A stretch of DNA of 64,000 nt, from contig CP137320.1 of assembly GCA_033182465.1 (NCBI GenBank), forward strand, positions 744,001 to 808,000. Direction: 5' to 3'. Under the pieces are notes generated by a model that saw only the letters and a list, made by a program, of their open reading frames with translations, made no database searches and was not told the origin of the DNA. The DNA is from Sanghuangporus weigelae. Taxonomy: Eukaryota > Basidiomycota > Agaricomycetes > Hymenochaetales > Hymenochaetaceae. A program made the translations under genes and the position numbers. Of this stretch, positions 16,038 through 54,538 are shown in pieces (position 1 is the first letter of the stretch; every line of letters starts with the position of its first letter).

Positions 16038-18811
<2,774 letters not shown>

Positions 18812-19018: not shown

Positions 19019-22000
19019 ATGACCCGAAGCAAACGGAAACATAGCGTGGCTTCCGAACCACACGCTGCTCGCAAGAAACTACGTGAACGTCGATCTACCA
19101 TTTCTGGTTCTGAATCTGTATCGCAAGTGCAATATTCGAGATTGAGTTCAGTAGCGTCTAGGATCAATTCAGGATCCGCTCCAACTCGAGCCACTCCCAG
19201 CAGGAATACCTCCGACAGTGAGTCTTAGAGCCGTTTTTCCATATTCTTCGACAAGCCATAGACTTCTCGTTTGTATAGAATACATCGCCCAAAATGCCGA
19301 GGTCTCTGAAACAGATGAGCTCGGTGACTTGCTTGGAGAATCCGAACCCGACCCCGATGATCTGGAGTCGCTTCCAGTCAGAATTTTAAGTTATTTTGAT
19401 ATTTACGACTACCAAACAGATGAGCGGAGAGTCCTTCCTATGGAGATTAATTTGGACGAAGACGTAGTCTTTTTCGGAGCATCCGGCCTGGTTAGGCCGC
19501 AGGTCCAAACAGATGATGAAGACGAAGACGAAGAGTTCGATTCTCCCGACGATGATAGCATACCAGTGAAATTAACTGCGATCCGGGATGTGTGGACCGA
19601 TAAACAGTCAGTGCTTTGGACATGCTACATTGCCGATGCGGGCTGAGATGCAATAATAGTGAAATCTGGATACGAACGCAGTTCGCGTGGTATGTTTTGG
19701 AGTTCCCTTCTCATCGGTATCGCCGATATTATGAGAAGGTTCAAGTTCTGGCCAGGAACTACTCGCCTCCGAAATCTTCACGACCATCTCGGTCTCGGGA
19801 TGCTTTGGCACCATATATAACGCCTCGTGTCGGCAAGATTGCTCAAGGGCTCTTTCTTCGGTCTCTGATTATTGCCAATGAGCGCATCATCACCGACTCC
19901 GAACTCCAGAATGTCTGCGTAGCAGACATCCCTTTCGTACGGCATGTTACGAATCCCAGTAATGTGGAATGGGGGCACGAGGTTCCGGAGGTCAAGGGGT
20001 TTTACAAGTCCGTCTTCGTGGATGGAGTGGAGTATCACGTACGTTTCGATCTTTCATTCGTGAAGTTAAGTTCATATTAATATTAAAGCTCTGTTCAGAT
20101 AAATGATTTGGTAGCCGTCGCTGCACCGCAGGCATTTTCAGATGTCTCCTCGGAGGGTGTCGATGACGACAAGCTGAGCAACAAGGCTTGGTGAGCCATC
20201 TCGACTTAAAGGTCATGTTCTGTCTCACCTTCACCGGACTAGGTTTGCACAAATTTGTTACTTCTTTGATCACATGGAACGGAGATCCAGCAAAGGGTCT
20301 AGGCTCGAGAAATACTTCCATCTGAGGTGGTTCTCGCATGGTTCTCAGACTATCCTTGGCGAGACCTCAAATCCTCAGGCGCTTTTTTTACTGGATGAAT
20401 GCGATGACAATCCAGTCGAAGCGATTCTGCAGAAAATAACTGTGCGACAGCTGGGTCCTGGAGATTTAGAACCAGTTGTGATATCCGACAGAGATGTCGG
20501 TTCCTCCACGTTTCACCTCAGGTATAGATCATCTGGCTTGGAATTTTGTCCTCCCTCAGTAATATGCTCTTCTATGTTCTAGTCATAAATGGGATAAAGA
20601 TAACATGATGATGAAGGCGGTAGATCTTGAGGCCGAACAGTCTTATTCAGGCCTTGGTGACGCGCTCGCAGAGCTGCCCCAGCACAAACAATGCTACGCG
20701 TGCGCACTGCGCGAAGGAAAGGAATTACAGCGATCCTGCAACAAACTGGATCCTGATGTGCTTGAGATTTATGGGAAACAGTATCATCTTTATGATTTTG
20801 TCTACGTGAGGATGCAATCTAAGCAACGCAATTTGCTGGTCGTCGCCCAAATTGTCGACCTACTTCCCTCAATTGGAGGACCAGATCTGCAGATATCTGT
20901 TTTCGACAGGGCACAATATGTTTCCGGTGAAGAACCAAATCCCCAATTACAAGTGAGTCTTTCGATCTCAATACTCCAATTTCCAGAACTTCACAGACCT
21001 TACCATCTCCTGCATAGCGGACATTGATATACACGGGGAATGTGGAAAGAGTTTCTGCATCCCACCTGGATGGGCATTGCAACGTCGCGAGACTCTCTGA
21101 GATTGAAGATCTGGACGCATGGTTCGATGGTCTAGACAACTTCGTGATTGACCACAAAAAGCCACTAAAGCAGTGTGGACAATGCTCAGCCAATCGTGAG
21201 GCGCTACTACGAGCTGAGGAAATGGTCAGAAAGGGATCTCCGTTACGAGCTCTGGACTTGTTTGCTGGTGAGAATCTGTGATGCATTGATGATTATTCTC
21301 TCAAGTTTTTCCTGTACTTTTAGGCGCGGGAGGATTGACGATGGGAATGGACCTGTCGGGTTACATCAAGACATGCTGGGCAGTGGAACGTTGCTCCTCT
21401 GCTTGCGAAACATTGAGGTCTGTCTTGGCTTTCTATCCGATGCACTACACAAGACTCAATGGCAGGGTGTAATCCCAGAGTTAATCATGACAATTTGATT
21501 GTTTACAATCAAGACTGTAACGTGCTCCTCGAGCATGCCGCAGAAACTCAGGAAGGGAAGAACCCGTCACCTGTGCGTTCTTTGGGGAAGGAAAATGAAA
21601 ATTTGCCGCCTCTCCCTCGTCCAGGTGAAGTGGACATCATCATGGGAGGCCCTCCATGTCAACCGTTTTCCGGTATGAACCGCTTTAAGGTACGCCTGGC
21701 AAACTTATTCACCATTGCCTGCCTTATGTTGCTCCGGAGTCTTGACTTCTTTCTCGCAATCTTACGTAGCGCGTTGATGACATACGGTAAGTGTTTCTCT
21801 TTAATTCCTTCATATCTCATGGGACTCATCTCCTTCGGATTAATTTGGAAGCCAAACGTGCATCCCGACTGCCTTAAGCTACGTCGAATTCTACAGACCG
21901 ATGTATGCACTAATTGAGAACGTAACTGGTCTCTTACATTATCGTTTGAACGGTCGACAAGAAGGTAAAAAGATTGTTGGTGGAGTCGAAGCGGGAATGG

Positions 22001-23672: not shown

Positions 23673-24298
23673 TCACGTTCGATCACGCCCGTTGAGAAGC
23701 TGTTCTACTCGTGTCACTTTCCCTTCATTTCCAGTTCCAGGCGCAATGTCGCGATCCGTTCTTGTACCGATGCGGATGTCAGTTGCGATTCGCGGAGCTC
23801 CTTGAGCATGAACTGCAGCGTGGCAATCATGAATCGCCTTCATCACTTCAGACCACGGACCCTCTTGTGATGTCGGAAATAGTAAATTGTTGAACAAGGG
23901 AATGCAAGAAATTGAATACTCTTACCAAGATTCGTGCCATAGCCACTACAGACAAAAAGAACTGAGCCTGAGCCTTTATCTCTAATCATGCTCGAAACCT
24001 AGGGCTTACTGCATCTGACGAAAATTAACGCGGGACTCTCTTAGTGTTGGGCAGGAGAGGGACAGATTCACTCTCACATTGTATGTAAGACCGGTCTTCT
24101 GTAGTACGCGTTGGCATTCAGCGATGTATATGGCAACCTGAAATCGTTCAGTACGAAGTAGGATTGACTATATGCTGCATACCGAGGGCTCCCCGGTACC
24201 CATTGGAATCAGGCAGAAGTCTAAACGTAATATAAGCATGGCTTATCATCACATTTCAACTTTCTCGTACCAGCTACAGCGTACAGATCGCTAGACAT
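23673..24298 (-). CDS. UPF0045/MTH1187-family thiamine-binding-fold protein (Ecm15-like)
   Basis: Small ferredoxin-like-fold protein; relatives bind thiamine or related pyrimidines, but the yeast member ECM15 has no settled role. Six exons (24298-24271, 24220-24183, 24137-24078, 24014-24010, 23945-23926, 23863-23673) give 113 aa. Family blocks are MYAVADF-like DLYAVADFCLIPMGTGEPS, YIAECQRVLQKTGLTYNMHG, YGTNLEGPWSEVMKAIHDCH and a closing RIATDIRIGTRTDR. Exon 4 is only 5 nt (ATGCA). It is flanked by CAG and GTAAGC and supplies the Met-His of the family's MHGYGTNLEG. Without it the frame is lost. It is divergent from LEU4. Confidence 0.85.
24010..24014 (-). other. 5-nt microexon of the UPF0045 gene
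   Basis: Minus-strand order: ...TTTTCGTCAG|ATGCA|GTAAGC... with introns of 63 and 64 nt on either side. The 5 nt encode Met and two bases of His; the downstream exon starts with the completing T, giving Met-His-Gly-Tyr-Gly. Confidence 0.75.
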
Positions 24299-24395
24299 TG
24301 TAAGAGGGTAATAACTGAAATCGTAATGCACGCCTTCGGATCGGTCGGGATGAAGGTGGTGATCGGCATGATCGGCGCAAGGAACTTTTTTGAAT

Positions 24396-24402
24396 TGACT
24401 CA
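24396..24402. promoter_or_regulatory. TGACTCA box (Gcn4/Cpc1-type) upstream of LEU4
   Basis: A perfect TGACTCA lies 73 bp before the LEU4 start, in the divergent region between the UPF0045 gene and LEU4. This is the general amino-acid control element of fungi, and LEU4 is a classic target. About eight such 7-mers are expected by chance in 64 kb on both strands, so position and gene function are the only support. Confidence 0.4.
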
Positions 24403-24474
24403 TGTTAACCATGCATTTTCACCTTGCGCATTCCTTTCATTGTCTCCTTCCACTCTTATCAGAACTAGCTTAAA

Positions 24475-27090
24475 ATGTGTATGTTGTGAGTGACCTATCT
24501 GCTTGGTTTTCCCTTTTATATCTCTAACGATATCCCAGGTCTGATCCGTCGGTCAAGTATAGACCATACACGCCCTTGAAGCTTGCCGACCGACAATGGC
24601 CGTCAAAGATTCACAACAGGGTACCTATATGGTTGTCTACTGATTTGCGGGATGGAAACCAGGCTCTAGCTGTTCCTATGACTGCAGATCAGAAGCGAAT
24701 CTTCTTTCATCATTTGATCAAATGTGGATTCAAGGAAATCGAAGTATCCTATCCTGCTGCTAGCGACACGGACTTCAGTTTCACCAGGAGCCTAATCGAG
24801 AATGAAAAAATTCCGGATGATGTATGGATTCAGGTACGTGGAATGTGACTCAGGCTCTTTCATGATTTACTTATTTGCGTTGCATTAGGTCCTTACTCCT
24901 GCTCGGGAAGACCTTATTCGACGGACATTTGAGGCGGTGGCAGGCGCCAGAAACGTCATTATTCACATGTACAACGCTACGAGCCCAATGTTTCGAGATG
25001 TGGTATTCAAAAACATGAAAGCGGAGACAGTTGATTTAGCTGTCAAGCACACAAAGCTGGTTGCGCAACTGACAGACGAGTATTCGGAAAAGTACGGCAC
25101 CAAGTTCAGATACGAATACAGCCCGGAGACATTTACCCAGACAGAACCAGAGTTTGCACTCGAAATCTGTGAAGCTGTCAAGTCTGCGTGGGGGAAAGCA
25201 GGTCTCGGGATAGATCGTATCATCTTCAATCTGCCAGCGACGGTCGAGATTGCTCCGCCGAATCACTATGCTGACCAGGTGCTTTTCGATGGATCGTGGA
25301 AATCGATGACCTACTCATTTCCTTATAGATTGAATTTTTCTGCAGGAATATCTCCGAGAGGGAGAAGACCATTGTCAGTCTGCATCCTCACAATGATCGA
25401 GGTGCGTTTCAAATATATACTTGTCTATATGCGCATTATTAATGAGCTCTTAGGAACTGCGGCTGCGGCTGCAGAGCTTGCCTGCATGGCCGGGGCCGAT
25501 CGTGTGGAAGGCTGCATCTTTGGAAATGGCGAACGAACTGGGAATGTTGACCTTGTCACCCTCGCCTTGAATTTATACACCCAGGGCGTGCACCCGAAAC
25601 TGGACTTCGGCGACATTCAAGCATGCATCGACATTGTGAATCAGTGTAATGATCTCCCTGTACACCCTCGACACCCGTATGGAGGTGAACTTGTCTTCAC
25701 TGCCTTCTCGGGTTCGCATCAAGATGCAATTAAGAAGGGCTTTGAGGCCCAGGCGAAGCGACATGCAGAGGCATGTGCAAAGGGCGAGCCACTTATCTGG
25801 GACATGCCCTACTTACCGATCGACCCGATGGATATTGGATGCAATTACGAGGCAGTCATTCGCGTCAATTCGCAGTCTGGGAAGGGTGGTATAGCGTATA
25901 TTGTGAAACAACACTTGGGACTCGACATGCCTCGCAAGATGCAAATCACATTCTACAAGGTCATTCAGGAAATGTCGGACAGAGAAGCGCGCGAAATGAC
26001 TGTGGACGATATAACTACGACTTTCCGACGATCTTATCATCTCGGTGGTGCGAAATACGATGGTCGCCTTGTCTTGCGATCATTCAAAATTTCAGATGAA
26101 CCTGTCTTGAATCCAATTGACCAGACGCCATATATGGACGGTGAAGCACCCGATGAGCGGCGCCGTTTCGATGGTACCCTTTCAGTCGATGGAGTATTCA
26201 GAGTTGTACACGGAGATGGAAATGGTCCTTTATCCGCTTTCTTGGATGCATTGAAGATCCATTTGGACATTGACCTCTCCATCCGTGAATACAGCGAACA
26301 TACTATAGGAGATGGGAAGAGTGCCAAAGCTGCATCGTACGTGGAGGTAGTGGAAGCGAAGCGAGAGCCTGGGCAACGACAAGAAGGCTGGTGGGGCGCA
26401 GGTTTGGATACAGACATTGCAGGCTCAGGTTTACGAGCGGTCCTTAGCGCGGTCAACAACTACATCGGTGACCGCGCACTGCCGGAGCTGAAGCTCTCAG
26501 TTGGATTTACTACACGCTCGGGCCCTGCCGACGTCGCTTCCGTCATTCTTAATACTCTGCAACTTGATCTTCCCCGACGCCTGCAAGCACACTTCTTTGA
26601 ATCCGTTCAGCACGCTTCACCAGAGGGGACGATTGGATACGATGCGCTTACGGCTCTCTTCAAGAACACGTACGGCTTTACCATACGAGAGCTGCCGCTC
26701 CTGCTGCAAAAGTTCACGATGGAGCATCTAGGAGACGGTGAGGTGCGCTCGATAAGCGCGACGGTTTTCATCAACGGACGGGAAATGGTGATCACAGGGA
26801 AGGGTAACGGACCGTTGTCCGCCGTTCTAGCTGCATTGGCACCTTACCATGACGGCGCCTTAACAGTACGCGAATATTCAGAGCATTCCATTGGTGAGGG
26901 CGCTGGCGTAAAAGCCGCTTCCTATGTGGAGCTTGTGTACACAGTCAATGAGGGCAGTCAACCCAGAAAATTGAGCTGCTGGGGAGCAGATATTGACGAG
27001 GACATTAGTGTCTCGGGTGTAAAAGCGTTGCTTAACGCTGTTGCTTTGCATGTACCACTGCGATCGAAGCTGGTTAATGGTGCAGTATAA
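24475..27090 (+). CDS. LEU4: 2-isopropylmalate synthase with duplicated C-terminal regulatory region
   Basis: Condenses acetyl-CoA with 2-ketoisovalerate, the first committed step to leucine. Five exons (24475-24485, 24539-24833, 24889-25278, 25329-25401, 25454-27090) give 801 aa; fungal enzymes are usually about 570-620 aa. Catalytic barrel: [41 protein letters not shown] and [21 protein letters not shown] first linker plus LeuA-dimer unit follows (ends with [32 protein letters not shown]). A second, similar unit then follows ([32 protein letters not shown]). The first coding exon is 11 nt (MCM plus two bases). No obvious mitochondrial presequence. Convergent with FAN1 (140 bp). Confidence 0.95.
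25873..26467 (+). repeat. LEU4 intragenic repeat, copy 1 (linker plus LeuA-dimer domain)
   Basis: Encodes [19 protein letters not shown], then the dimer-domain block [39 protein letters not shown] and [20 protein letters not shown]. It matches copy 2 block by block; the two share YSEH[TS]IG and KAASYVE[VL]V. Confidence 0.75.
26518..27060 (+). repeat. LEU4 intragenic repeat, copy 2
   Basis: Encodes [19 protein letters not shown], then [39 protein letters not shown] and [20 protein letters not shown], parallel to copy 1. Similarity is clear at protein level but not at DNA level, so the duplication looks old. Confidence 0.75.
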
Positions 27091-27230: not shown

Positions 27231-30200
27231 TTACAATTCAGCAGCCGACCTACTTAGATTTTCCCTCGGATCTTCGTCCTTCAAATGCATGGTTCGTGGT
27301 TTCTTTGCCGGGTGCCTTTCAACATCGTCTTCTACCTTCTCATTAAGGAGCTCTTCCTCTGATTCTGCTTCGCACGCGCTGTCCTCATCCACGTCGATTG
27401 GAGAGCAGGCCTTTCCATCGTCAATACGATAGACTCTGATGATGCGATGTTTCTTCGGGGCGTTGCGCATGGATTGATTTTCCGTTTTCTCGCGGTCGAC
27501 CACTCGGCAGACCTCAACATCAATACCAGCTTGGCGGAGGACATCAATCCACACCTAGATGAAGACGTAAGATTGGAAGGCAGGATTAGGATGAGGGGTT
27601 TTACCTTCTGATTCTCAGACAAGTTATCTCCAGGACCTTTGACCTCAACGAATTTTGCTAGTTTGTCCTTCATGCGCCAGACAATCAAATCTGGTACGCC
27701 ACTGTGGCGGCCGCCGTAATCCTCGCAGAAGAGTCGGCAAATCACCGACAGCCCTTCTCCGCCCAGGCACTGCCGGATCGTCCAGGTCAAGTTAAGCAGA
27801 CAAAAATAGTGTTACTTACAGTGACAATCTCCACAAGGTCTTGTTTAGAGTAATCGTTCCATCGGACACCGACGCACATTGTATTGTTCTCCCTGTACTT
27901 GTCATCTGCAGAAGCTAGGATCTCCGGAGCTTTCCCATCTTTGATTTCCTGTAAACGTTCCTCGACGGCATCCTTGCGGGCGAAATAAAAGCACTCAGAT
28001 GCGATATCAAGTGGTGCCGACTGATAAGGCGTTTCAAATGCGCCCGGTACTGAGGAGAACAGGATATCCCAAAACAAAAGTCCCCAAATAGTGGAAACAA
28101 TGCTTGCTTCCGAATGGAATCTATGGGAGTTACTCAATGTCCAGCGATGAGCCAAGATCAGCCACATTGAAGCATACCCTTTATAGCCATCGAGCTCGTA
28201 ATGATGCAGAACCAATGTCTCGACGTTGACTTCCTCTCCACATTTACCATACCAGAGTGATTTTCCGGTCCACCTCTCTTTTGCGCGTTCCTTTTTCATT
28301 TGATCCAGATGTCTTCTCACAGCCTCCTCTCCTTGTATCTGTACAGACACAGGAACAACGGCCTTGTTGGCATTCTTGCTTGTCCCACCTAGACCAATAG
28401 CAGATTTACGCTGTCGAATGCGGTCTCCTGTAATTACTCTTTCGGCCGCTTTCTTCAGTCTCCCTGCACACTCGTGACGTTCCTTAAGGGGAACCTTCAG
28501 GCGCTTTTCCAACCGCGTCAAACGTCGTTCAAGAGCTTGTCTGTGCACTAGTAAGGCAAAGAAGTGAATGGTGGATGTACGTAATAACCGCTAAGGCCAA
28601 ATGACTAACCGATATGTGTATCATCATCATGAAGCCCTTCTATCACAACTTTCATGGCCTTCTGAAGCACCTTCTTTTGCTCCTCTTTGGATAAAGGTAC
28701 TTGTTCACCATCAACTTCACATTTGGTGCGCACAACATGATGCATGAGTACAAGTGCCCAACGATCATACCATGCACCGCGTTTGCCACGGCGCCAGCGT
28801 CGTTGTGCCAGCAGCTCTTGGAGCAGAGCAATTTCGCGGTCAAATTCCTTCAGCTTGCCGTATGCAGTTGCACCTGAAAAGTTGGAAGAACATGGTTAAG
28901 ATTGGAATAATGTCCAATTCGCGTATATACAGTACCTTTGTACACGATGCGCGTCAATATGTACCCTTCATCAAAGCGTTCAAGGCCGTGGGGTCGTGCT
29001 TCTTCCTCACCGCGCAGACGAACTAGTTCTTGCCAACGTGGATACACACGTTCAAACACGCTTACGACGTATTTGGCATTGGTGACAGTCTGGGATTCCT
29101 TCGTTGGAGGTGCAATAGGCTCATCGTCGAACTCCAACTTTGTTGGCACGCTCATGTTCCGACTACGCGATTGCATTGCAGAGGGCCAAGGCGCGTTTTC
29201 CTTTCCGGAGTCTCCAGCATCATCAAGAGACTCTGCCCGAGGACGTAAAGTATGCGGGGGAAGGGTATGAATGTTTGTACCTTTCTCGCGATTATGAGCC
29301 CATGCATCGATATGTTGTTCTGCAAGCTCGACATCGATGTTACCCTCCAGCATGAGATCTACCGCCGCCTCCATACGGAGCGCCTCTTCGTAAGCAATAA
29401 GAGCTTCGCGGGAAGTGAATATCTCGCGCGTTCGAACGTATGTATAAAGAGGATAATAACGCTTGCGGCATCGTCTCAGAAGAGCTGGCGTTAGGAGGGA
29501 TGTTGGATGTTCAGTTCTAAGGCAACTGATCAGACTTAATTCATAGAAGCAGTAAGGTTCGCAACTTACGAACGGAAGTAAATAATGTGAAGTCGGTGGA
29601 AAAGAGCGTTGATCGCGTCATTTACACGAATACAACTTTCTGAAAGCAATAAACATGGGCATGAGCAATACGGTCACTTTATCATTCACTTACTCAGGTT
29701 CCTCATCACCAGGCTTCTCAGAACATCCGCCTGTACCGTTGCCTTGTTCGCCGGTTTAAACGACAAACATGTTTGTTTCAGATGAATAGACTTTGCATCT
29801 CTTGCAGACTTCCTAGACTTCGAATTACCAGGGGAAGCAAAACCGCCAAGAATTGTCTGTGCAGATGCACAAGCCAAAAGTCCGTCGATGAGCGCTGCTC
29901 GCTGATGACAAGAAGATCAGGATGTGTCAAACCGTCAGGGGAAAAAATCCGTACCGTTACAAGTGCGTTTGAGAGCTTCAAAGTTTTCGCCAAACTTTTC
30001 AACTCATCGACGTTTAAGCATTTCAACAGCTCCGACAAGGAAGCATGAGATTCGTCCTCTGCACAGTAATCCAGCAGGCCAATGCAAAAAGAACCTGATT
30101 TGGTACCGGAAATATTGGAATAATATGCCTGGGAGAACGTTGAATCAATTGAAGCCTCTGCTTCGGGTAATATAATGTGGTCTTCATCATCTGATATGAG

Positions 30201-30780
30201 ATCGACCACGTTTCGAGTTTTGAGAGACCGTTTTGACGACTGTGAAGACTTGGGTGACATGCTTTTCTGAGAATCGGTCCCAGAACCTAAGATACCGCAT
30301 AGTTCTTTCATTGCCTCCATTATGCCCTCCATCCCTAACTCTGCGACATATTTGAGCTGGTCAAAACGATACCATTTTCCTGTTTTGCGAACTAGAAGCC
30401 GGGCGAGAAGATACCTTGCTTTATCTATGAAACCCTCAGCGTCAAATGCGATCGGTAATGCAAGAACTGAAGCATACACGTGAGGGTGCTGTAGGCGTTG
30501 AAGAATGACAGCTCCTCTTCAGAGAAAAGAAAACTCTCAGTTTCAAGGACTGCCCTGACCATGCCTTGGAAATGGATGAATATAGGCAATTATGACTAGC
30601 TGCCCATCAATACACACCTTCGACCAATGTCACATACATCGACTCCCTCACTTTTCCTTTCTCCTTCGTCTCGTTATCAAGATCTTGCTCTTCCTCTGCA
30701 GGCATCTCGTCCTCAAAGCCGACATCCCCATCCTCGTCCACACTTGGAGCACACCAGAAAATCAGGTCATCAGCAGACAT
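27231..30780 (-). CDS. FAN1: FAN1-like structure-specific nuclease (VRR-NUC)
   Basis: 5' flap endonuclease and exonuclease of interstrand-crosslink repair. Eleven exons (30780-30618, 30564-30478, 30424-29961, 29901-29694, 29639-29570, 29516-28936, 28873-28610, 28547-28178, 28120-27820, 27769-27605, 27554-27231) give 998 aa. A SAP-like segment (LKCLNVDELKSLAKTLKLSN) follows an acidic N-terminus. A helical TPR-like middle has MEAAVDLMLEG, LERFDEGYILTRIV and FHSEASIVSTIWGLLFWD. The VRR-NUC domain shows GGRHSGVPDLIVW, KFVEVKGPGDNLSENQ and a following VWIDVLRQAGIDVEV, which keep the PD-(D/E)-K nuclease residues. No UBZ finger was seen, as is usual in fungi. The start was chosen at MSADDLIFW, the first in-frame ATG. 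Confidence 0.93.
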
Positions 30781-33842: not shown

Positions 33843-35554
33843 ATGACTCCAGACGACGCAAAGTCACAGGCAATGCGCCTTCTTGAACTCATATCAAGCC
33901 AATTTACGACGGCTATTTACGACACACATCCAAATACCTTGGGCGCCTTGTTGATTGATGAGAAGTCATTTCCGATACCTCCTGAATGGGATGATTGGTG
34001 GGCATGGAGCGGTGAACGAGAAGACAGCTGGAGCGCTCTCGTGATTGCGAGCCATTCTGTTGTCGTCTCTGGTAGATATAACCCGGATATTGGAGACCAA
34101 GTCAAAAGCCAGTCTGATATTTACGGACTTCCGGAAAGTCTCTCCCGAATTCTACTTGATGCTAAGGCGCTTTCGCTTCCTCGCCAAACCGATTCGGAGT
34201 ATTCTTCACGAGGTGATTCATTTTCTATATCGCGCACTGGAATGTCTCCAAAGAAATTTCACGAAGTCTCTCGAATGACGTCCTATGTGCTGAATCTTTT
34301 GGATACTTTACGCAAGCAATACGGTTCCGAAGTACGGCATGTCGTTGACATTGGCGCAGGAAAGGTTCGATAGTATCAGCTTCGCAGCGGCTTTGACTGT
34401 TGTAGCTGAAAAACATTTATCTTTAGGGCTACTTATCCAGGGCTTTATGTAAGTCGAATATCAAATTGAACTCTGGGATCTATGATAACAAAAGGCGCTG
34501 AAGGCGATGCAAGAAACCTACATGTTCTGGCTCTCGATTCTTCTCAGAACCAGACGGAAGGTTCCTATCGCAAGTCACAAAATTCGAAATCCAATGGGAG
34601 CTTAACCCATCGGATGATCTGGCTTGGGGAAGGGCCATCTTTTGAAAGCCACCCTGGGTTCCAAGGCTCAGAAGTAGAGAACTCAAAGGGCCTAGAGAAA
34701 GTGATCGATGCATGGATGAACGGATTTAATGAAGGGGATGAGTCCTGCATCTCCGGGAACGAGAGAAAACCGACCCCCGTAGTGTTCGTCGCACTGCACG
34801 CATGCGGCTCTCTTACTCCGTCAATCTTGCAAGAAGTGTTGAGTCATCGACAGAATGCAGCTTCTGCCAACAGAAAATGGTTCGTCGCAGCAGCTGTCGT
34901 TGTTGGATGTTGCTATAATCTAATGAGGAGAGAAGGTGTGCAACATGCATATGAGTTTCAATGTTCAGCGATCTCATATTTTCTCCAGACTTTCCTCTTT
35001 CGCATACTTTGCGGGGATATCTACAAAAATGTTTTCCTCTCTTTGAGGTGTCTCCGAACCATCTCCAATTAGCGGCTCAAGTTCCGTCAACATGGTTCAG
35101 ATCCACTGAGGCAGCCTCAGCCACAGAGCTAGCTATGAAGAAAGTCCTTTATCGAGCATTGATTTCTCCTCTTCTGGATCGTTCCAACGAAACGGGGGTA
35201 TCTCAGAAGTTGGGAAAGCTTAATTCAAAAGCATACGAAAGCTTTGAAGGCTTCTTGGATATGGCCGGAAGAAAGATGGAAATAGACCTTTTATCCTCCT
35301 TCAAGGAGATCATAGCGCAAGCCTCTGCGGCTGCTGAGATTGATAAGCTCTCGAGACGAGTCAGAGCCCTTCATGCGTTACGATGCCTCCTGGGGCCGCC
35401 TGTCGAAAGTTTAATAATTCTGGATCGATATTTGTGGTTACAGGAAGAATTGGGTAGTAGCGGTGAGCGGCTGATTACTGACATTGTCAATCTATTCGAC
35501 CAGGAGACAGGCAGCAGAAGAAATGTAGCGTTAGTCTTGACCCCGTCTGCATGA
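33843..35554 (+). CDS. METTL25/RRNAD1-like methyltransferase
   Basis: Predicted SAM-dependent methyltransferase of the METTL25 family; its substrate is unclear to me. Four exons (33843-34364, 34427-34448, 34495-34935, 34989-35554) give 516 aa. The SAM-binding loop is VVDIGAGKGYLSRAL, built across the 22-nt exon 2. Later family blocks are VFVALHACGSLTPSILQE, VVVGCCYNLM and FPLSHTL. The C-terminal part has helical segments with ELAMKKVLYRALISPLL and LGPPVESLIILDRYLWLQE, which are characteristic of METTL25. All phases agree. UPF1 starts 134 bp downstream on the same strand. Confidence 0.85.
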
Positions 35555-35688
35555 GTTTTGGTAAAGGCAAGCCTCAGCATTACGTAAGCCATGTACTAGA
35601 GTCATCATATGCGCGGCACTGCTCAGCTCAGTCTCCATCCCATTCTTTCATTGCAACTTTCATCGTCTATTGCTATTTTGTCACGATT

Positions 35689-38600
35689 ATGGACTCTTTC
35701 GAAAACTTTCAATATGAATCCGGTTCGACCTATGGTGGTTTACCCATTGTAGACGACACTTCCTCCATCGTCTCCGGTTTCACAAACTCGAATCGACTCT
35801 CGGAAGACCTTGAACCACTTTCGAGTCTCTCCATCTCTGGTGAACCCAAGTCAGGAGGAAACAATGCTCCGAAAAATGGCCAAGATGAGAAGGCTGTGGC
35901 TAGAGCCAATGCCGTTGACGAAGAACTGGATGGTGTTTTGGATGATTTGAAGGATGAGAGTGCTGTGGAACTACCCCCGCATGCATGCAGGTGCGCAACC
36001 CTGATCTATATTTAGTATCCCACCTGGTGCTTACGAGCAACATCAGCTATTGTGGTATTCACAACCCAGCTTCCGTCGTGAAATGCCTAATCTGCAGCAA
36101 ATGGTTCTGCAACTCGCGTGGAAACACCTCAGCCTCGCATATTGTAAATCATCTCGTGCGCGCCAAACATAAAGAGGTCATTCTGCATGCTGAGTCACCT
36201 CTGGGCGAAACGACTCCGGAGTGCTATAACTGCGGCAGCAAGAATGTTTTTATGCTCGGCTTTATTCCTGCAAAGAGCGATACCGTTGTGGTACTGTTGT
36301 GCCGGTAAGCGCCCGTGCGTCTACTTGGTAAATGGATTCTTTATTTATTTTATTTCTTCAGACAACCATGCGCTGCAATATCAAAGGACATTTCATGGAA
36401 TTCTGCCCTTTGGGCACCACTCATTGATGATCGGTCATTCTTGTCATGGCTCGTGAAGCCACCCAGTGAAGCAGAACAATTACGTTCCCGTCAAATCTCT
36501 TTCGCTCAGATAAATCGTCTTGAAGACCTGTGGCGAGAAAATGCGAACGCGACCCTTGAAGACCTCGATAAGCCGGGTGTTGATGACGAGCCTCAGCCGA
36601 TTCTGCTTCGATACGAAGATGCTTACCAATACCAGAATATTTTTGGACCTCTAGTGAAGATCGAGGCGGACTACGACAAGCGTCTCAAAGAGAGTCAGAC
36701 GCAAACAGATGTTACCGTTCGCTGGGATATGGGTCTCAATCACAAGCGTATCGCCTGGTTTAATTTTCCGAAGCTGGAGAGTGGAGAAGTTAGGCTGGCT
36801 GTTGGTGACGAGCTGCGTTTGAGATACCAGGGTGAATTGCATAAGCCATGGGAGGGGGTGGGACACGTTCTCAAAATTCCCAATAGTGAGCTAAAATTTC
36901 TTGTGGTCTGCGGTCAATACTTATTGATCCTTAAAGACGTGTCTGACGAAGTTGGCCTTGAACTTCGCAAGAGTGAAGGTGTGCCAACGGAGTTAACGCA
37001 TAACTTCATTGTCGACTTCGTCTGGAAATCTACAAGCTTTGATCGGATGCAATTTGCCATGAAGACTTTTGCCGTTGATGAGAAGAGTGTCAGCGGATAT
37101 ATCGTAGGTCAATTCGTTGAGTTGTTTTCACCAAATTTTCTAACTTATTTTCTAGTATCATAAACTTCTTGGACACGAGCTTGAACCACAAGTTCTCAAG
37201 ACACAGATGCCGAAGCGCTTCTCCGCTCCCGGTCTGCCAGAACTGAATCACTCGCAAATGTACGCTGTGAAGAGCGTGCTGCAAAAGCCTCTCAGTCTTA
37301 TCCAGGTTAGTAATCCTTGGAAACATCCATAAAGAACAGGTCTTGACTAGCCTTTCAGGGTCCACCAGGTACCGGAAAGACGGTCACATCTGCCTCGATC
37401 GTCTATCACCTGGCCAAGATGAATCCCGGTCAAGTCCTTGTTTGCGCTCCTTCAAATGTCGCCGTCGATCAACTCACCGAGAAAATCCACGCTACTGGTC
37501 TAAAAGTCGTGCGTTTGACAGCTAAATCTCGTGAGGCGTTGGACTCTTCTATCGCATTCTTGACGTTGCACCGTCAAGTCGCCAACAACACGACGAATAT
37601 CGAGCTTCAGAAGCTTATCCAGCTGAAGAATGAACAAGGAGAACTGAGTTCTAATGACGAAAGAAAGTACAAGACGCTCATCAGACAATGTGAAAAAGAG
37701 ATATTGTCCGCGGCTGACGTGATATGCGCGACCTGCGTTGGATGTGGTGACCCGAGGTTGAGCAAGCTGAAGTTTAGGACGGTGCTGATTGACGAAGCTA
37801 CTCAAGCCGCTGAGCCTGGTGAGTAATACCTGTAAACTATCCCTGAATCCTGCTAATTATCTGTTTAGAGTGTATGATTCCTCTCGTCCTTGGATGTAAG
37901 CAAGTTGTTCTCGTCGGAGATCACCAGGTAAGCTTATACTTGTGCATTCTTTGGTGCTATACTGATGGCCATTTCATCTAGCAACTCGGGCCCGTCATCA
38001 TGAACAAGAAGGCTGCTCGTGCCGGTCTTACACAGTCCCTGTTCGAGCGTCTTGTTGTTCTCGGAAACCGGCCAATCCGTCTCCAAGTGCAGTACCGTAT
38101 GCATCCGTGCCTTTCAGAGTTCCCATCCAATATGTTCTACGAAGGGACTCTTCAGAATGGTGTGACAGCGCCTGAGCGTCTGAGAAAGAACGTCGACTTC
38201 CCTTGGCCTGTTCCCGATACACCCATGTTCTTCTATCAGAACCTTGGCCAGGAAGAAATTTCGTCTAGTGGAACGTCCTTCTTGAATAGGTATGTTCAAG
38301 ATCTAGCATCTAGGTAGATCCATTAACAAATAATTGTTCAGGACCGAAGCCTCCAATGTGGAGAAGATCGTCACAAAGTTCTTCAAGTCTGGCGTCGTTC
38401 CTGCTCAGATTGGTGTCATCACACCTTACGAAGGCCAACGCTCGTACATTGTCAGTTATATGCAATTTAGTGGCACGTTGAAGAAAGACCTCTATAAGGA
38501 AGTTGAGGTGGCTAGCGTCGATGCTTTCCAAGGCCGTGAGAAGGATTATATCATTCTGAGCTGTGTGAGGAGCAACGAGCACCAGGGCATTGGTTTCTTG

Positions 38601-39399
38601 AACGATCCGAGGCGTCTCAACGTCGCTTTGACTCGTGCGAAGTATGGCGTCGTCATCCTTGGTAATCCCAAGGTTTTGAGCAAGGTAGATTACTGTTGAT
38701 ATTCCACATTGAACAAGACTGACTCCGAGAAATTCCTAGCATCCGCTTTGGCATTATCTGCTAACGCACTACAAGGAGAAGAACTGTCTTGTCGAAGGAC
38801 CGCTGAATAATCTTCAGCCGAGTATGATTCAGTTCAGCAAGCCAAGACGTGCATTGAACAAATCGGTTGACCAGTACCGTCGTCATGAAATCAATGCCAG
38901 AGACCTCCTCGGCGCACCGAGTGGAGGACGGTCCGGTACTCCAAGCAGGTTTGATGCCAGCTTCTACCGCACGCATGATCCGCTAGGCTATATCCCATCT
39001 GATGTTCAGTCGTTACGTTCGCAAGCGACTTATTCGTCTGGTCTCCCGATGTTCGCGGCCACGAACGGACCATTCGGGGCAGGTATGCCACGCTCTGCGA
39101 ACGGTTCGAAGCGAAGTGTCTACGGTGGATATGCAAGTTCGATTATCTCGCAGGACGCCGGACCTGGCACTGACGCTGGAAGTGTCGTCGGCGGTGCAAT
39201 ACCCTCGGACCGTGCAAGCAGTATCTCGTACTCACAGTCCGATCGCCTGCGCCGTCGCGGATCGTTGTCATCTATGGCCGGTGCGTCGGATATGGGCAGC
39301 CTCTCGCAGTTCGACTATAAGAGCCAAGACGATTCCGGCGATCTCGATGATATGAAGTCTCAATACACAGGCACACAATCCGGTGTTACGGTCTTCTAG
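35689..39399 (+). CDS. UPF1: UPF1/NAM7 RNA helicase of nonsense-mediated decay
   Basis: SF1 5'-3' RNA helicase central to nonsense-mediated mRNA decay. Nine exons (35689-35990, 36047-36304, 36362-37103, 37156-37305, 37359-37818, 37869-37927, 37982-38289, 38342-38684, 38740-39399) give 1093 aa. The Cys/His-rich domain has [18 protein letters not shown] and [15 protein letters not shown]. The helicase core shows Walker [23 protein letters not shown], Walker [46 protein letters not shown] and [10 protein letters not shown]. The C-terminal tail of about 190 residues is Ser/Gly-rich and holds several SQ/TQ dipeptides. Convergent with the P4-ATPase, 946 bp between stops. Confidence 0.97.
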
Positions 39400-50123: not shown

Positions 50124-53100
50124 TCAATTATTGAGGTACTCCAAGCATTCCAATACGGTGTTCAGAGCGATGATACTGAAGCTATTCAAGCCAAATGGAT
50201 TCCTTCTAGCATCCTCTGTCGTTAACTTATCGGTGATTAGCTTCCACGATGTCCAAGCAAATTCGAGAGCCTGTGTCGCCTCCACCTTCGTCATCGTCTG
50301 TAATTTCTCGGGAATGAACTGCTCTCTGATTTCCTTCACTAGATTTGAAGCGTGCACGCGCATCCGATAGATTCGCTCGGTCCGCCAGCGATGTCGGGAG
50401 CATCGAGCAAGAATAGTTCCTATCACAACTTCCTCCTCCTTGAGCTTCGAGTCGACATGGTCTGTTAGCGTGTGTGTCGCGCAAATGTATTGCAGTTCGT
50501 TGTAATAATGGCGGAAGATTCTTCTGACTTCCTCTTCCGTGGTCTGCCGGACACGCGAATCCCGAAGCTTGGCGTCGACAGTCGCCTTGAGGGCCCTGTA
50601 AACCGGATGTTCCGAGACTTGGATATATGAGCTTTCACCACGATCATCGAAATCTGTGCACGATGCGACCTTCTCAACGCGTCGAAAGATCTCACCTACA
50701 ATCCGATTCGTCATCGAGAAATATATATCAGAAACTATTCACTTTCTGACAGACCGTGGAAGACATGAATATCAAGAAAGCTGACTCTCACCTACTGCCC
50801 GTTCAGAACGATAAAAGTCAGTGCGATGTTCATCTTCCGCCTCATTCTTCTTCCAGTCCGGCTTGAACGGGATAAGTTTCGGGGGAAGACGCGAGATATC
50901 AACCTCCATCCCGTTCTTAGGATAATCCACTGCTTGACTACAGAGTTTAGCTAGCAAAAGACAGCCCGGGTCACGAACACCATCCTACACCCATTGTTAG
51001 TTGATGAGGTAGCTCGAAGGCTCAATGCTCACCGCCGATTGGTCTATGAGGTCCTATGAGTAAATCCGTCATTGGCGCAAGACAATTCGAACTACATACC
51101 TGCTCTGATAAGATGTTCATCGCCCAGGACACCCTGGACAGGAGCACATAGTATTTTCAGGCGTTGAGTAACATACCGTAACACTTACCATAACGTCTGA
51201 GTTTATGTACTTTACCACAAAATCGCATACGAATGGGACAATCTTCTCGGGGTCTACCTTTGTCTGTCCTGTTTCTTGGTCGAATTCCTCCAGGTCGCTC
51301 AGTTCAATCTCCCACTTTGGGGGAGCAGGGAACTCGGCAGGGAAGTCATGAATGCTTCCGAAGAGAGGCTGGTATTGACATATATTGAAGATATCGCTAT
51401 AATAAATCAGTCATCCATGGTCCATGAGAACAGATAAATCACAAAACACTCACCCGTCAAGGTCTCCTCCACTGAGACAAGAAGCAAGAGACCTCTTTCC
51501 TGCAGAAGATTCGAAATCAGAATGAGAGCGATCAGTCACCAAATGATGCAAAAGCTCACCCTTGCAAGGAAACACAATGACGTTGACAAGGTTGCGGAAT
51601 GCGCAAATTTTTTCCGGCGGAGGCTTTCCAATCGCATATAGATTCTATACTGAAAAGTAAGGGCGAGGCATGCATGAGGTGAGTTGCGTCAAGACTTTCC
51701 TGACAATCACCGGGATATATAGTCGGGCTTCTGAAAACCAAGCATCGTCTTTCAAGATATATAGGTTCCGAATTCGCATTTTCCTGAATACAGACTATTG
51801 CTCGATGAGCTGCTTTGTGAAGAAGAAACGAAGGTAGTAGGACGTGCCGAAAACATCTCCTTCCCCCAATGTAAACACTTCATCTTCCCTATATTCTCCC
51901 CTTTCTATGTATGCGGGGCCTTCGTCAGCAACACCTACCAAAGTATAACTTTTAGGAACAGGGATGCGACAACGATACTGAATGTCACGAAGGACGCTTG
52001 ATATCGTGGATCCAATCAAATTATCTATGAAAGGATTCCGTAGGTTCCTTGCCGGATTTCGGGGATTTAGATCCAATCCATATACAGACAACTTCTGCAG
52101 GAGAGAGCTGACACCGAATGTCGAACCTAACCCGTGAGATTTCATGACAGTTACGAAATGGGTCACTGATTTCCGAGTTAAATGAACATCGGTTATTGCA
52201 GAATCTAAGAGTTCTAGGAATACGTCCTTTTTTACCTCGCGGTCTTCGAGAATCATGACGAGAGGACTGGGCTGATGGAGTCAACATCTGTAAATGCACG
52301 TTTCAAGTGAATGATTACCGATTGAGATACAACGAAGAAGGACCGCAGAAAGCTTTTGCGATTTCAATATCTGCGATTTCAACGTCGTGCGATGTAAACT
52401 TCCTCATGGATGGCCGGAGGTTCATCTTTATTCCTTTTAGGTTATCATCAACCACAACGACACCTTTGAAACTGAGAAAACGAATTTGATACTGGAGTCG
52501 CGTAGCTCTCAGAAATTTGTATCAACAAAATTCTCGACAGAACTTACTGCAGAAGGCTCGGCATATTGCTTTAGGTGAGGGTTCAGCCTACACTCTTCCG
52601 ACCATATAAGTCCTCCAAGCTGTCTAGAAATAGTTCCAATCCCTTGTAGCGATGAGTAACAAGAAGAAACTCCTCAAGCTGATTAACTTTACCGTCGGTA
52701 TGAAGATAAGGATCGCTCCCCAAGTCTGGTATTTCAGCCCATTGGTCTCTACTGATTTTCACAGAGGGATTTGTACCGGAGAATGCGAGCGCCAGTCTTG
52801 CTCCAAATTTCGCCGGGTATGCCAACTCAGCAGTGAGATCGCCTATCTCTCTACGGATGCTCGCCGCATTGACCAAACCATGTTCAGGATGCAAGAAGGG
52901 CGAGACGAACCAAACAGAATGTTCTCGCAACGCAGATGTCGAATATGCTAAGAACTCAAAGTGTCTTCCTCCCAGGTCAAATCCGTTTTTCAGTGTCTGG
53001 CCAACACGTTGCTCAAGGAGAGTCGTGCCATCAAGCTGGTGCTCCCAGCGAAATTGGAGACGGTCCTCGTCGCGGAAATCGACCCTCAAGAAGTGGTCAT

Positions 53101-54538
53101 GGAAGCTACTGTAACGCCTTAGGATCCGATTCGACTGGATGTCGTACGGTCCCTCAAGTAGCATACGGGTGGGAGTGAATGTGACGTGGTGGCACGCCAT
53201 CAAGCCTTCAAGCTCGTCATTACGGCTTGTTACGGTTGCAGATTCCAGAAATCCCCCGAAACGTAGCCAATTGTGGCAGAATTGCTTAAAGTGCCTAGCG
53301 ACATCAGTTGCTGTGATGCAGTTGTAGACTTCAGTTGCCAGCGTCCGGGAGAAGTCCCGAAGCAAAGTTCCAATGGTATCTTTATAAGGCTGGGCCATTT
53401 TTACGAGTTCTGGTAGAAGACCGTTCAAGAGTTGCACAGTCGTCAGAAGCCCGTTATATAAGAAACTCTCGATTTGAAACACGACCGTCCACGGTAACTC
53501 TCGAAATGCTTTGAAGGACTTTCGGACTTCTAGTAGCATTTTTTGGCTGAAGAAATCATGTCGCTCAGAGGTGATGACTGCCATCTCTGGAGTCCGAAGT
53601 CCAGCAACATCGCAAGCACGGATGAAGTCTTCTAGGTCGTTTACCGCGTAAAGACTCACGCGAATTTGATACGCATATGGACCAATGGAACGGTGATGCT
53701 CGTCGAGAGAGCTGACTCTTCGACGGATTTTTCTTGTATCAAGGAATGCTACACCCGTCTGCGTCTGATTCGTCCACTGGCTTTCAAAAATCGGTGGCGT
53801 CAACAAATCAAAGCATATATCTAATGCAATCGCAAGTCAACGTCATTTAGACAACTGAAAATCGGCAATGTACTCACAGGGCTTAAACTCGTATCCAACC
53901 CAAAAATGTTGGATATTAGAGTACTTTATAACGACATAATGGGTCTCATCGTCCGAAAAAGGGTCTCCTAGGCGTAGTCTCAACGACTTGCGGTCGTACT
54001 TGAACTCGACTTGCGCATTGCCCGCAGCCGTATAATCTTTCTCCCATTCGACAGCGAATACGCCCTGACACCCTGTTCCGCGGTGAGGTGTCGGACGGGA
54101 TATCCAGACGCCGAGTTGTAACTTGTCGATGCGCCATGAAACGCTCAATTCAAACAGGATGTTGTCCCGCTCCCGGTCTATGCTCGGGTCTTGATAGGGC
54201 AATTTGCGCAGCGTCTCGACGCGGCCTTTGTTCGGCTTCCTCTCGCTTTCTCTCATTCTTATTCGACGAGAATTGACACAAGGAAAGTCTTTGTTGTCTA
54301 TAGCGAGCTGAAGCAGCACCTGTCCGAGCTTTTTATTCGGAAGAGTGAGTGTGCCTGTTCCATCATGACGTCCGCTTTCCAACCTTCCAAGAACAATATG
54401 GAAGTTTAATGGACGGAATTCTTGTCCATTATTGCGGGTGATGAGTCTAAAGTTGTCAGAGTGGAGTATTCGAGCGAACTCCTCTTTTACATCGTACAGA
54501 TCAGCTCTGAAGCTTATGCTTATGAGTTCGATTTCCAT
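50124..54538 (-). CDS. Cellular RNA-dependent RNA polymerase (QDE-1/Rdp1 type)
   Basis: Makes double-stranded RNA from single-stranded templates for RNA silencing (quelling). About 1229 aa. Exons: 54538-53878, 53820-52693, 52612-52548, 52491-52319, 52266-51848, 51794 to about 51700, 51644-51560, 51499-51454, 51396-51189, 51133-51100, 51043-51033, 50984-50792, 50695-50124. Motifs: PSAYQIRFLSFKGVVVVDD, SLYLNRPLVMILED, LVFRSPTIYPGD, AIGKPPPEKICAFRNLVNVI, SCLSGGDLDGDIFNI (the catalytic DxDGD, split by an intron) and LLLAKLCSQAVDYPKNG. Exon 11 is 11 nt. The donor at 51847 is GC. The junction after TIYPGDCQ (51700 to 51644) has no canonical donor in the right phase, so either the splice is unusual or the frame is broken there; the 52693-52612 junction is also less sure. 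Confidence 0.9.

Follow-up and report, generated by a model that had tools for sequence, protein, structure and literature searches.

Internal exons of only a few nucleotides have been described in several eukaryotes. The P450 genes of the basidiomycete Phanerochaete chrysosporium include exons encoding 2-10 residues, the shortest being 6 bp (PMC1184071), and an 8-nt exon of P. chrysosporium CYP5141A1 lies inside a conserved motif (PMC12940212). A one-nucleotide exon with RNA support is described for the Fusarium CYP621A genes in the latter paper, where exons of 2-5 bp are quoted for Arabidopsis, Drosophila and humans (PMC12940212). Arabidopsis APC11 has an exon of a single nucleotide, whose flanking introns were proposed to be recognised by intron definition and removed stepwise (PMC4674806), and 2398 plant microexons of 1-15 nt were counted in 10 species (PMC12409088). 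In C. elegans, microexons spliced independently of PRP-40 adjoin unusually short introns, down to 49 nt; an upstream intron of 58 nt abolished the PRP-40 dependence of another microexon, and when the downstream intron was exchanged, splicing failed to proceed normally in wild-type animals as well (PMC8378409). Exons so short are often missed by genome annotation (PMC12940212, PMC12409088), and in one study read mapping was run with a microexon search switched on (PMC3990503).

In a 64,000-nt stretch of a Sanghuangporus weigelae contig (the window; the source genome comprises 33.9 Mb in 13 contigs), a small gene on the minus strand (24298-23673) very probably contains an exon of 5 nt. The six exons join into an open frame with a product of 113 aa, and all five introns are of the GT-AG type and 45-64 nt long (Table 1). 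The start of exon 1 is only inferred, since further in-frame ATGs lie upstream. The genes and short introns of the window are in keeping with a fungal source. The sequence-only reading that preceded this analysis let the TACATACAAT exon end at 24078, put ATGCA at 24014-24010 between CAG and GTAAGC and let TGGCTATGG begin at 23945, and these coordinates were reproduced. By its length and its AG/GT borders, exon 4 falls within the limits used for microexons, ≤27 nt (PMC8378409) or 1-15 nt (PMC12409088). Exon 5 also lies under the 27-nt limit of PMC8378409, and exons 4 and 5 are two adjacent microexons in one gene.

Table 1. Exons and introns of the six-exon gene (window positions; features in order of transcription)
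Feature	Position	Strand	Length and sequence
Exon 1, coding part	24271..24298	-	28 nt, MSSDLYAVA(D); start inferred
Intron 1	24221..24270	-	50 nt, GTACGA...TTTAG
Exon 2	24183..24220	-	38 nt
Intron 2	24138..24182	-	45 nt, GTATGC...TTTCAG
Exon 3	24078..24137	-	60 nt, ends ...GLTYN
Intron 3	24015..24077	-	63 nt, GTGAGA...CGTCAG; branch-like CACTAAG; tandem donor GTGAAT at 24071
Exon 4 (microexon ATGCA)	24010..24014	-	5 nt; Met and first two bases of His
Intron 4	23946..24009	-	64 nt, GTAAGC...CTGTAG
Exon 5	23926..23945	-	20 nt, (H)GYGTNL
Intron 5	23864..23925	-	62 nt, GTAAGA...CACAAG
Exon 6	23673..23863	-	191 nt including stop, EGPWSEVM...TDIRIGTRTD...

The locus resembles the P. chrysosporium P450 microexons in combining a tiny internal exon with short introns in a fungus (PMC1184071, PMC12940212), but it belongs to another gene family and its exon has 5 nt. 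As in Fusarium CYP621A, what gives the exon away is that the two exons around a conserved motif do not agree in phase, and an apparent intron, of 139 nt there and 132 nt here, is split in two; the Fusarium exon, by contrast, is 1 nt long, belongs to an ascomycete P450 and is documented by 20 orthologues and RNA reads (PMC12940212), whereas the present exon is predicted from the sequence. An ultra-short internal exon is also what the gene shares with APC11 and other plant microexons, which differ in coming from plants and in being backed by constructs or RNA-seq (PMC4674806, PMC12409088). Among the open-licence papers listed in separate searches on microexons or short exons and on UPF0045, none showed such an exon for a fungal member of this protein family.

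The 113-aa product matches PF01910 with 98.1 bits (cut-off 24.9; profile positions 1-84 of 92) and TIGR00106 with 95.6 bits (cut-off 54.7; profile positions 2-83 of 97), and thus lies above the curated cut-offs over most of both profiles. Judged by this directly observed match, the fungal product belongs to the Thiamine_BP family (PF01910, UPF0045, MTH1187), for which thiamine binding is putative and taken from the family names. Among solved relatives in the same family, identity is 38% to S. cerevisiae 1LXJ (presumably the product of YBL001c), 35% to MTH1187 (1LXN) and 31% to MJ1052 (2EKY). Proteins of Halomonas and its bacterial allies are nearer to the product, at 43-55% identity over the best segments, than is the yeast 1LXJ (38%). 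Possible readings are horizontal transfer and a paralogue that has been lost.

The gene is divergent from a 2-isopropylmalate synthase gene on the plus strand (LeuA_dimer, HMGL-like). Open frames from 24528 may represent the start of the synthase, and 24299-24527 may therefore hold a shared promoter. Elsewhere in the window we noted a partial C-5 cytosine DNA methyltransferase at 21417-21914 (plus strand; PF00145, 19.6 bits, below the cut-off of 22), to which open frames beside it on the same strand may belong by eye, and a possible FAN1 nuclease at 29781-30518 (minus strand; FAN1_HTH, 20.1 bits, below the cut-off of 27), with open frames at 27335-28590 (minus strand) that by eye resemble its continuation. 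An RNA-dependent RNA polymerase domain of a type known from fungal RNA silencing is encoded at 52586-53836 (minus strand; PF05183, 154.3 bits).

The residues encoded by the microexon are conserved in the family. ATGCA gives Met-His within YN-MH-GYGTNLEGPW, and the alignment with 1LXJ runs without a gap over query residues 5-89, through the microexon residues (TLHSAGTTIEGPW against NMHGYGTNLEGPW); at the microexon 1LXJ reads TLHSAGT where the product reads NMHGYGT. Bacterial and archaeal genomes, scanned with a two-sequence alignment as query, yielded 126 relatives, the best 80 of which were analysed; Halomonas and allied genera account for 73 of these, Synechococcus for 6 and a planctomycete for 1. 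These 80 are mostly close kin of one another and hence not 80 independent witnesses. At the microexon position, 69 of these best 80 carry MH, 5 LH and 6 LG, so that the His is kept in 74, and none has a gap or an insert at residues 38-53. The relatives were found via the patterns EGPW[SD][ED]VM and [YF][AC][VL]AD[FV]C[LM][IV]; as these cover other parts of the protein, Met-His was not built into the search. Agreement of the yeast and the bacterial proteins, with MH in the 69 of 80 examined, supports the earlier proposal that the 5-nt exon supplies the Met-His of the family. Scanning of viral contigs with the protein found no relative, and the plasmid scan gave only two matches, both distant.

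The same comparison speaks to the possibility that intron 3 is kept, giving an exon 24137-24010 with a 21-residue insert and no microexon. The 63 nt of intron 3 are in frame and free of stops, so that their retention leaves the frame unbroken. Retention nevertheless lowers the match to PF01910 from 98.1 to 87.5 bits (by 10.6) and that to TIGR00106 from 95.6 to 85.1 bits (by 10.5); each of the best 80 of the 126 relatives scores better against the microexon product than against the one retaining intron 3, and the insert occurs in none of them. The stretch also has a donor, CACTAAG and a CAG. We regard it as very improbable that this stretch is exon and not intron.

The reading frame requires ATGCA: when it is omitted and 24078 is joined to 23945, the frame stops after 48 residues. 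A stwintron is an intron within another intron, with no base between the two kept in the mRNA. We rejected this reading of the gap, because the frame is lost if the 5 nt are left out of the mRNA. An intronless copy of the gene would prove the splice; a search of the same genome, in which the best candidates were scored, found none, and each of its three matches is a piece of the 24298-23673 locus.

We enumerated the alternative splicing chains while holding exons 1 and 2 and the beginning of exon 3 constant. A chain could contain no more than three GT/GC-AG introns, each 35 nt or longer, and splice sites were sought within the region's first 300 nt. The resulting 114,395 chains gave 16,404 distinct open products, which were scored against a profile built from the 80 bacterial relatives and the 3 solved ones. 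In the observed ranking, the microexon model comes first with 116.4 bits. The best chain without the 5-nt exon reaches 105.5 bits, the best in which all exons have at least 9 nt 104.7 bits, and the best that spans the gap by one splice 103.7 bits. Other places in the gap allow exons of 8, 3, 2 or 26 nt, and these gave lower scores than the microexon model; the donors of the alternative 8-nt and 2-nt exons score poorly, as does the acceptor of the 26-nt exon.

The chain with one splice shows that the sequence-only reading went too far in stating that no single GT-AG splice joins the flanking exons in frame, since an intron of 118 nt with its donor at 24063 and its acceptor at 23945 does so and gives TYN-VRVNL-GYGT. 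Its donor, GTCCCT, scores -6.2 bits against 4.7-10.2 bits in 13 reference donors, and its product loses Met-His, is three residues longer and scores 12.7 bits lower than that of the microexon model. There is hardly any likelihood that this intron replaces the microexon. Equally far-fetched is the replacement of the 5-nt exon by one of 26 nt (24035-24010), which would give TYN-SRVNFRQ-MH-GYGT: it is the best chain without an exon under 9 nt and retains Met-His, yet its acceptor at 24035 scores -8.2 bits, it would need a 42-nt intron, and its seven-residue insert is found in none of the best 80 of the 126 relatives.

The splice sites were scored against 13 introns of the same window, nine from UPF1 and four from MCM7, read against solved relatives; the scores are leave-one-out values from a small set, with the thirteenth acceptor placed by hand and the uncertain N-terminal part of MCM7 omitted. 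UPF1, the helicase of nonsense-mediated decay, lies at 35482-39396 (plus strand) and has nine introns of 50-57 nt; MCM7, at 16124-18215 (minus strand), has at least four, of 51-53 nt. Introns 3 and 4 have donors that score 2.5 and 4.3 bits, below all 13 reference donors (4.7-10.2 bits). Their acceptors (5.7 and 4.3 bits) fall between 2.2 and 8.4 bits, as do 12 of the 13 reference acceptors; the thirteenth scores -8.5. Introns 3 and 4 are also longer than all 13 reference introns (50-57 nt), and a check of intron 4 for a CTRAY branch-like site found none.

The tandem donor GTGAAT at 24071 outscores the chosen donor of intron 3, GTGAGA (3.8 against 2.5 bits). Used with the same microexon, alone or as a minor form, it would give TYN-VR-MH-GYGT and a product of 115 aa, and this chain, whose donor lies 6 nt further on, ranks second in the enumeration with 110.6 bits. 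The score is still 5.8 bits below that of the microexon model, the Val-Arg insert is present neither in 1LXJ nor in any of the best 80 of the 126 relatives, and the tandem donor lacks the G at +5 that 12 of the 13 reference donors have. Its use therefore appears unlikely, and it would leave the 5-nt exon in place.

To gauge how readily such an exon arises by chance, the 132-nt gap was put through 20,000 dinucleotide shuffles, in which the first and last 6 nt were kept and introns of at least 35 nt and exons of up to 30 nt were accepted. Some short in-frame exon with AG/GT borders occurred in 18,704 of the 20,000 shuffles and an in-frame exon of 5 nt in 7,354. An in-frame 5-nt exon coding for [ML]H occurred in 163 of the 20,000, and one coding for Met-His in 9. 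Short in-frame exons are thus cheap, and it is the Met-His content that carries the significance. The sequence YAGATGCAGTRNG occurs once in the 64 kb, with 0.01 occurrences expected.

Taken with the frame and the conservation of the two residues, both read directly from the sequences, these results make it highly likely that this is a six-exon Thiamine_BP gene in which the 5-nt exon 4 codes for the conserved Met-His before GYGTNLEGPW. Introns 3 and 4 would each be recognised across itself, by intron definition, and would leave the transcript in succession, since two splice sites separated by 5 nt are hardly able to be in use simultaneously. That the microexon is spliced, in this order and constitutively, is what we infer from the gene's structure. 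The sequence-only reading held that exons this short are rare and need special recognition. Locally they are rare, the shortest of the eight internal UPF1 exons having 59 nt, yet exons of 1 to 8 nt have been published for fungi. The demand for special recognition finds no support in the present evidence: the flanking introns are short (63 and 64 nt), and by analogy with the PRP-40-independent microexons of C. elegans, which adjoin unusually short introns (PMC8378409), such recognition may be dispensable here.

Skipping of exon 4 would join 24078 to 23945 and shift the frame, with the stop after 48 residues described above. An mRNA that skips the exon is expected to be destroyed by nonsense-mediated decay. 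As an addition compatible with the microexon model, exon 4 might be regulated, its inclusion or skipping acting as a switch through this decay. The early stop and the weak donors flanking the exon would suit such a switch, although the same could be said of many exons with a length not divisible by three, and we give the idea little credence. It is just as doubtful, if conceivable, that the weak donors make inclusion regulated, so that skipping, or retention of intron 3 with its 21 extra residues, adjusts how much of the putative thiamine-binding protein is made or which form it takes.

If exon 4 were missed in annotation, the gene would appear with a broken frame or with a false coding stretch of 14 nt or 63 nt. 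It is a clean test case for annotation software. Exons of 1 to 8 nt have already been reported in fungi, and the present exon would add another such case. Existing knowledge of splicing is unchanged by it, and the gene offers a small substrate for studying the splicing of a 5-nt exon between short introns.
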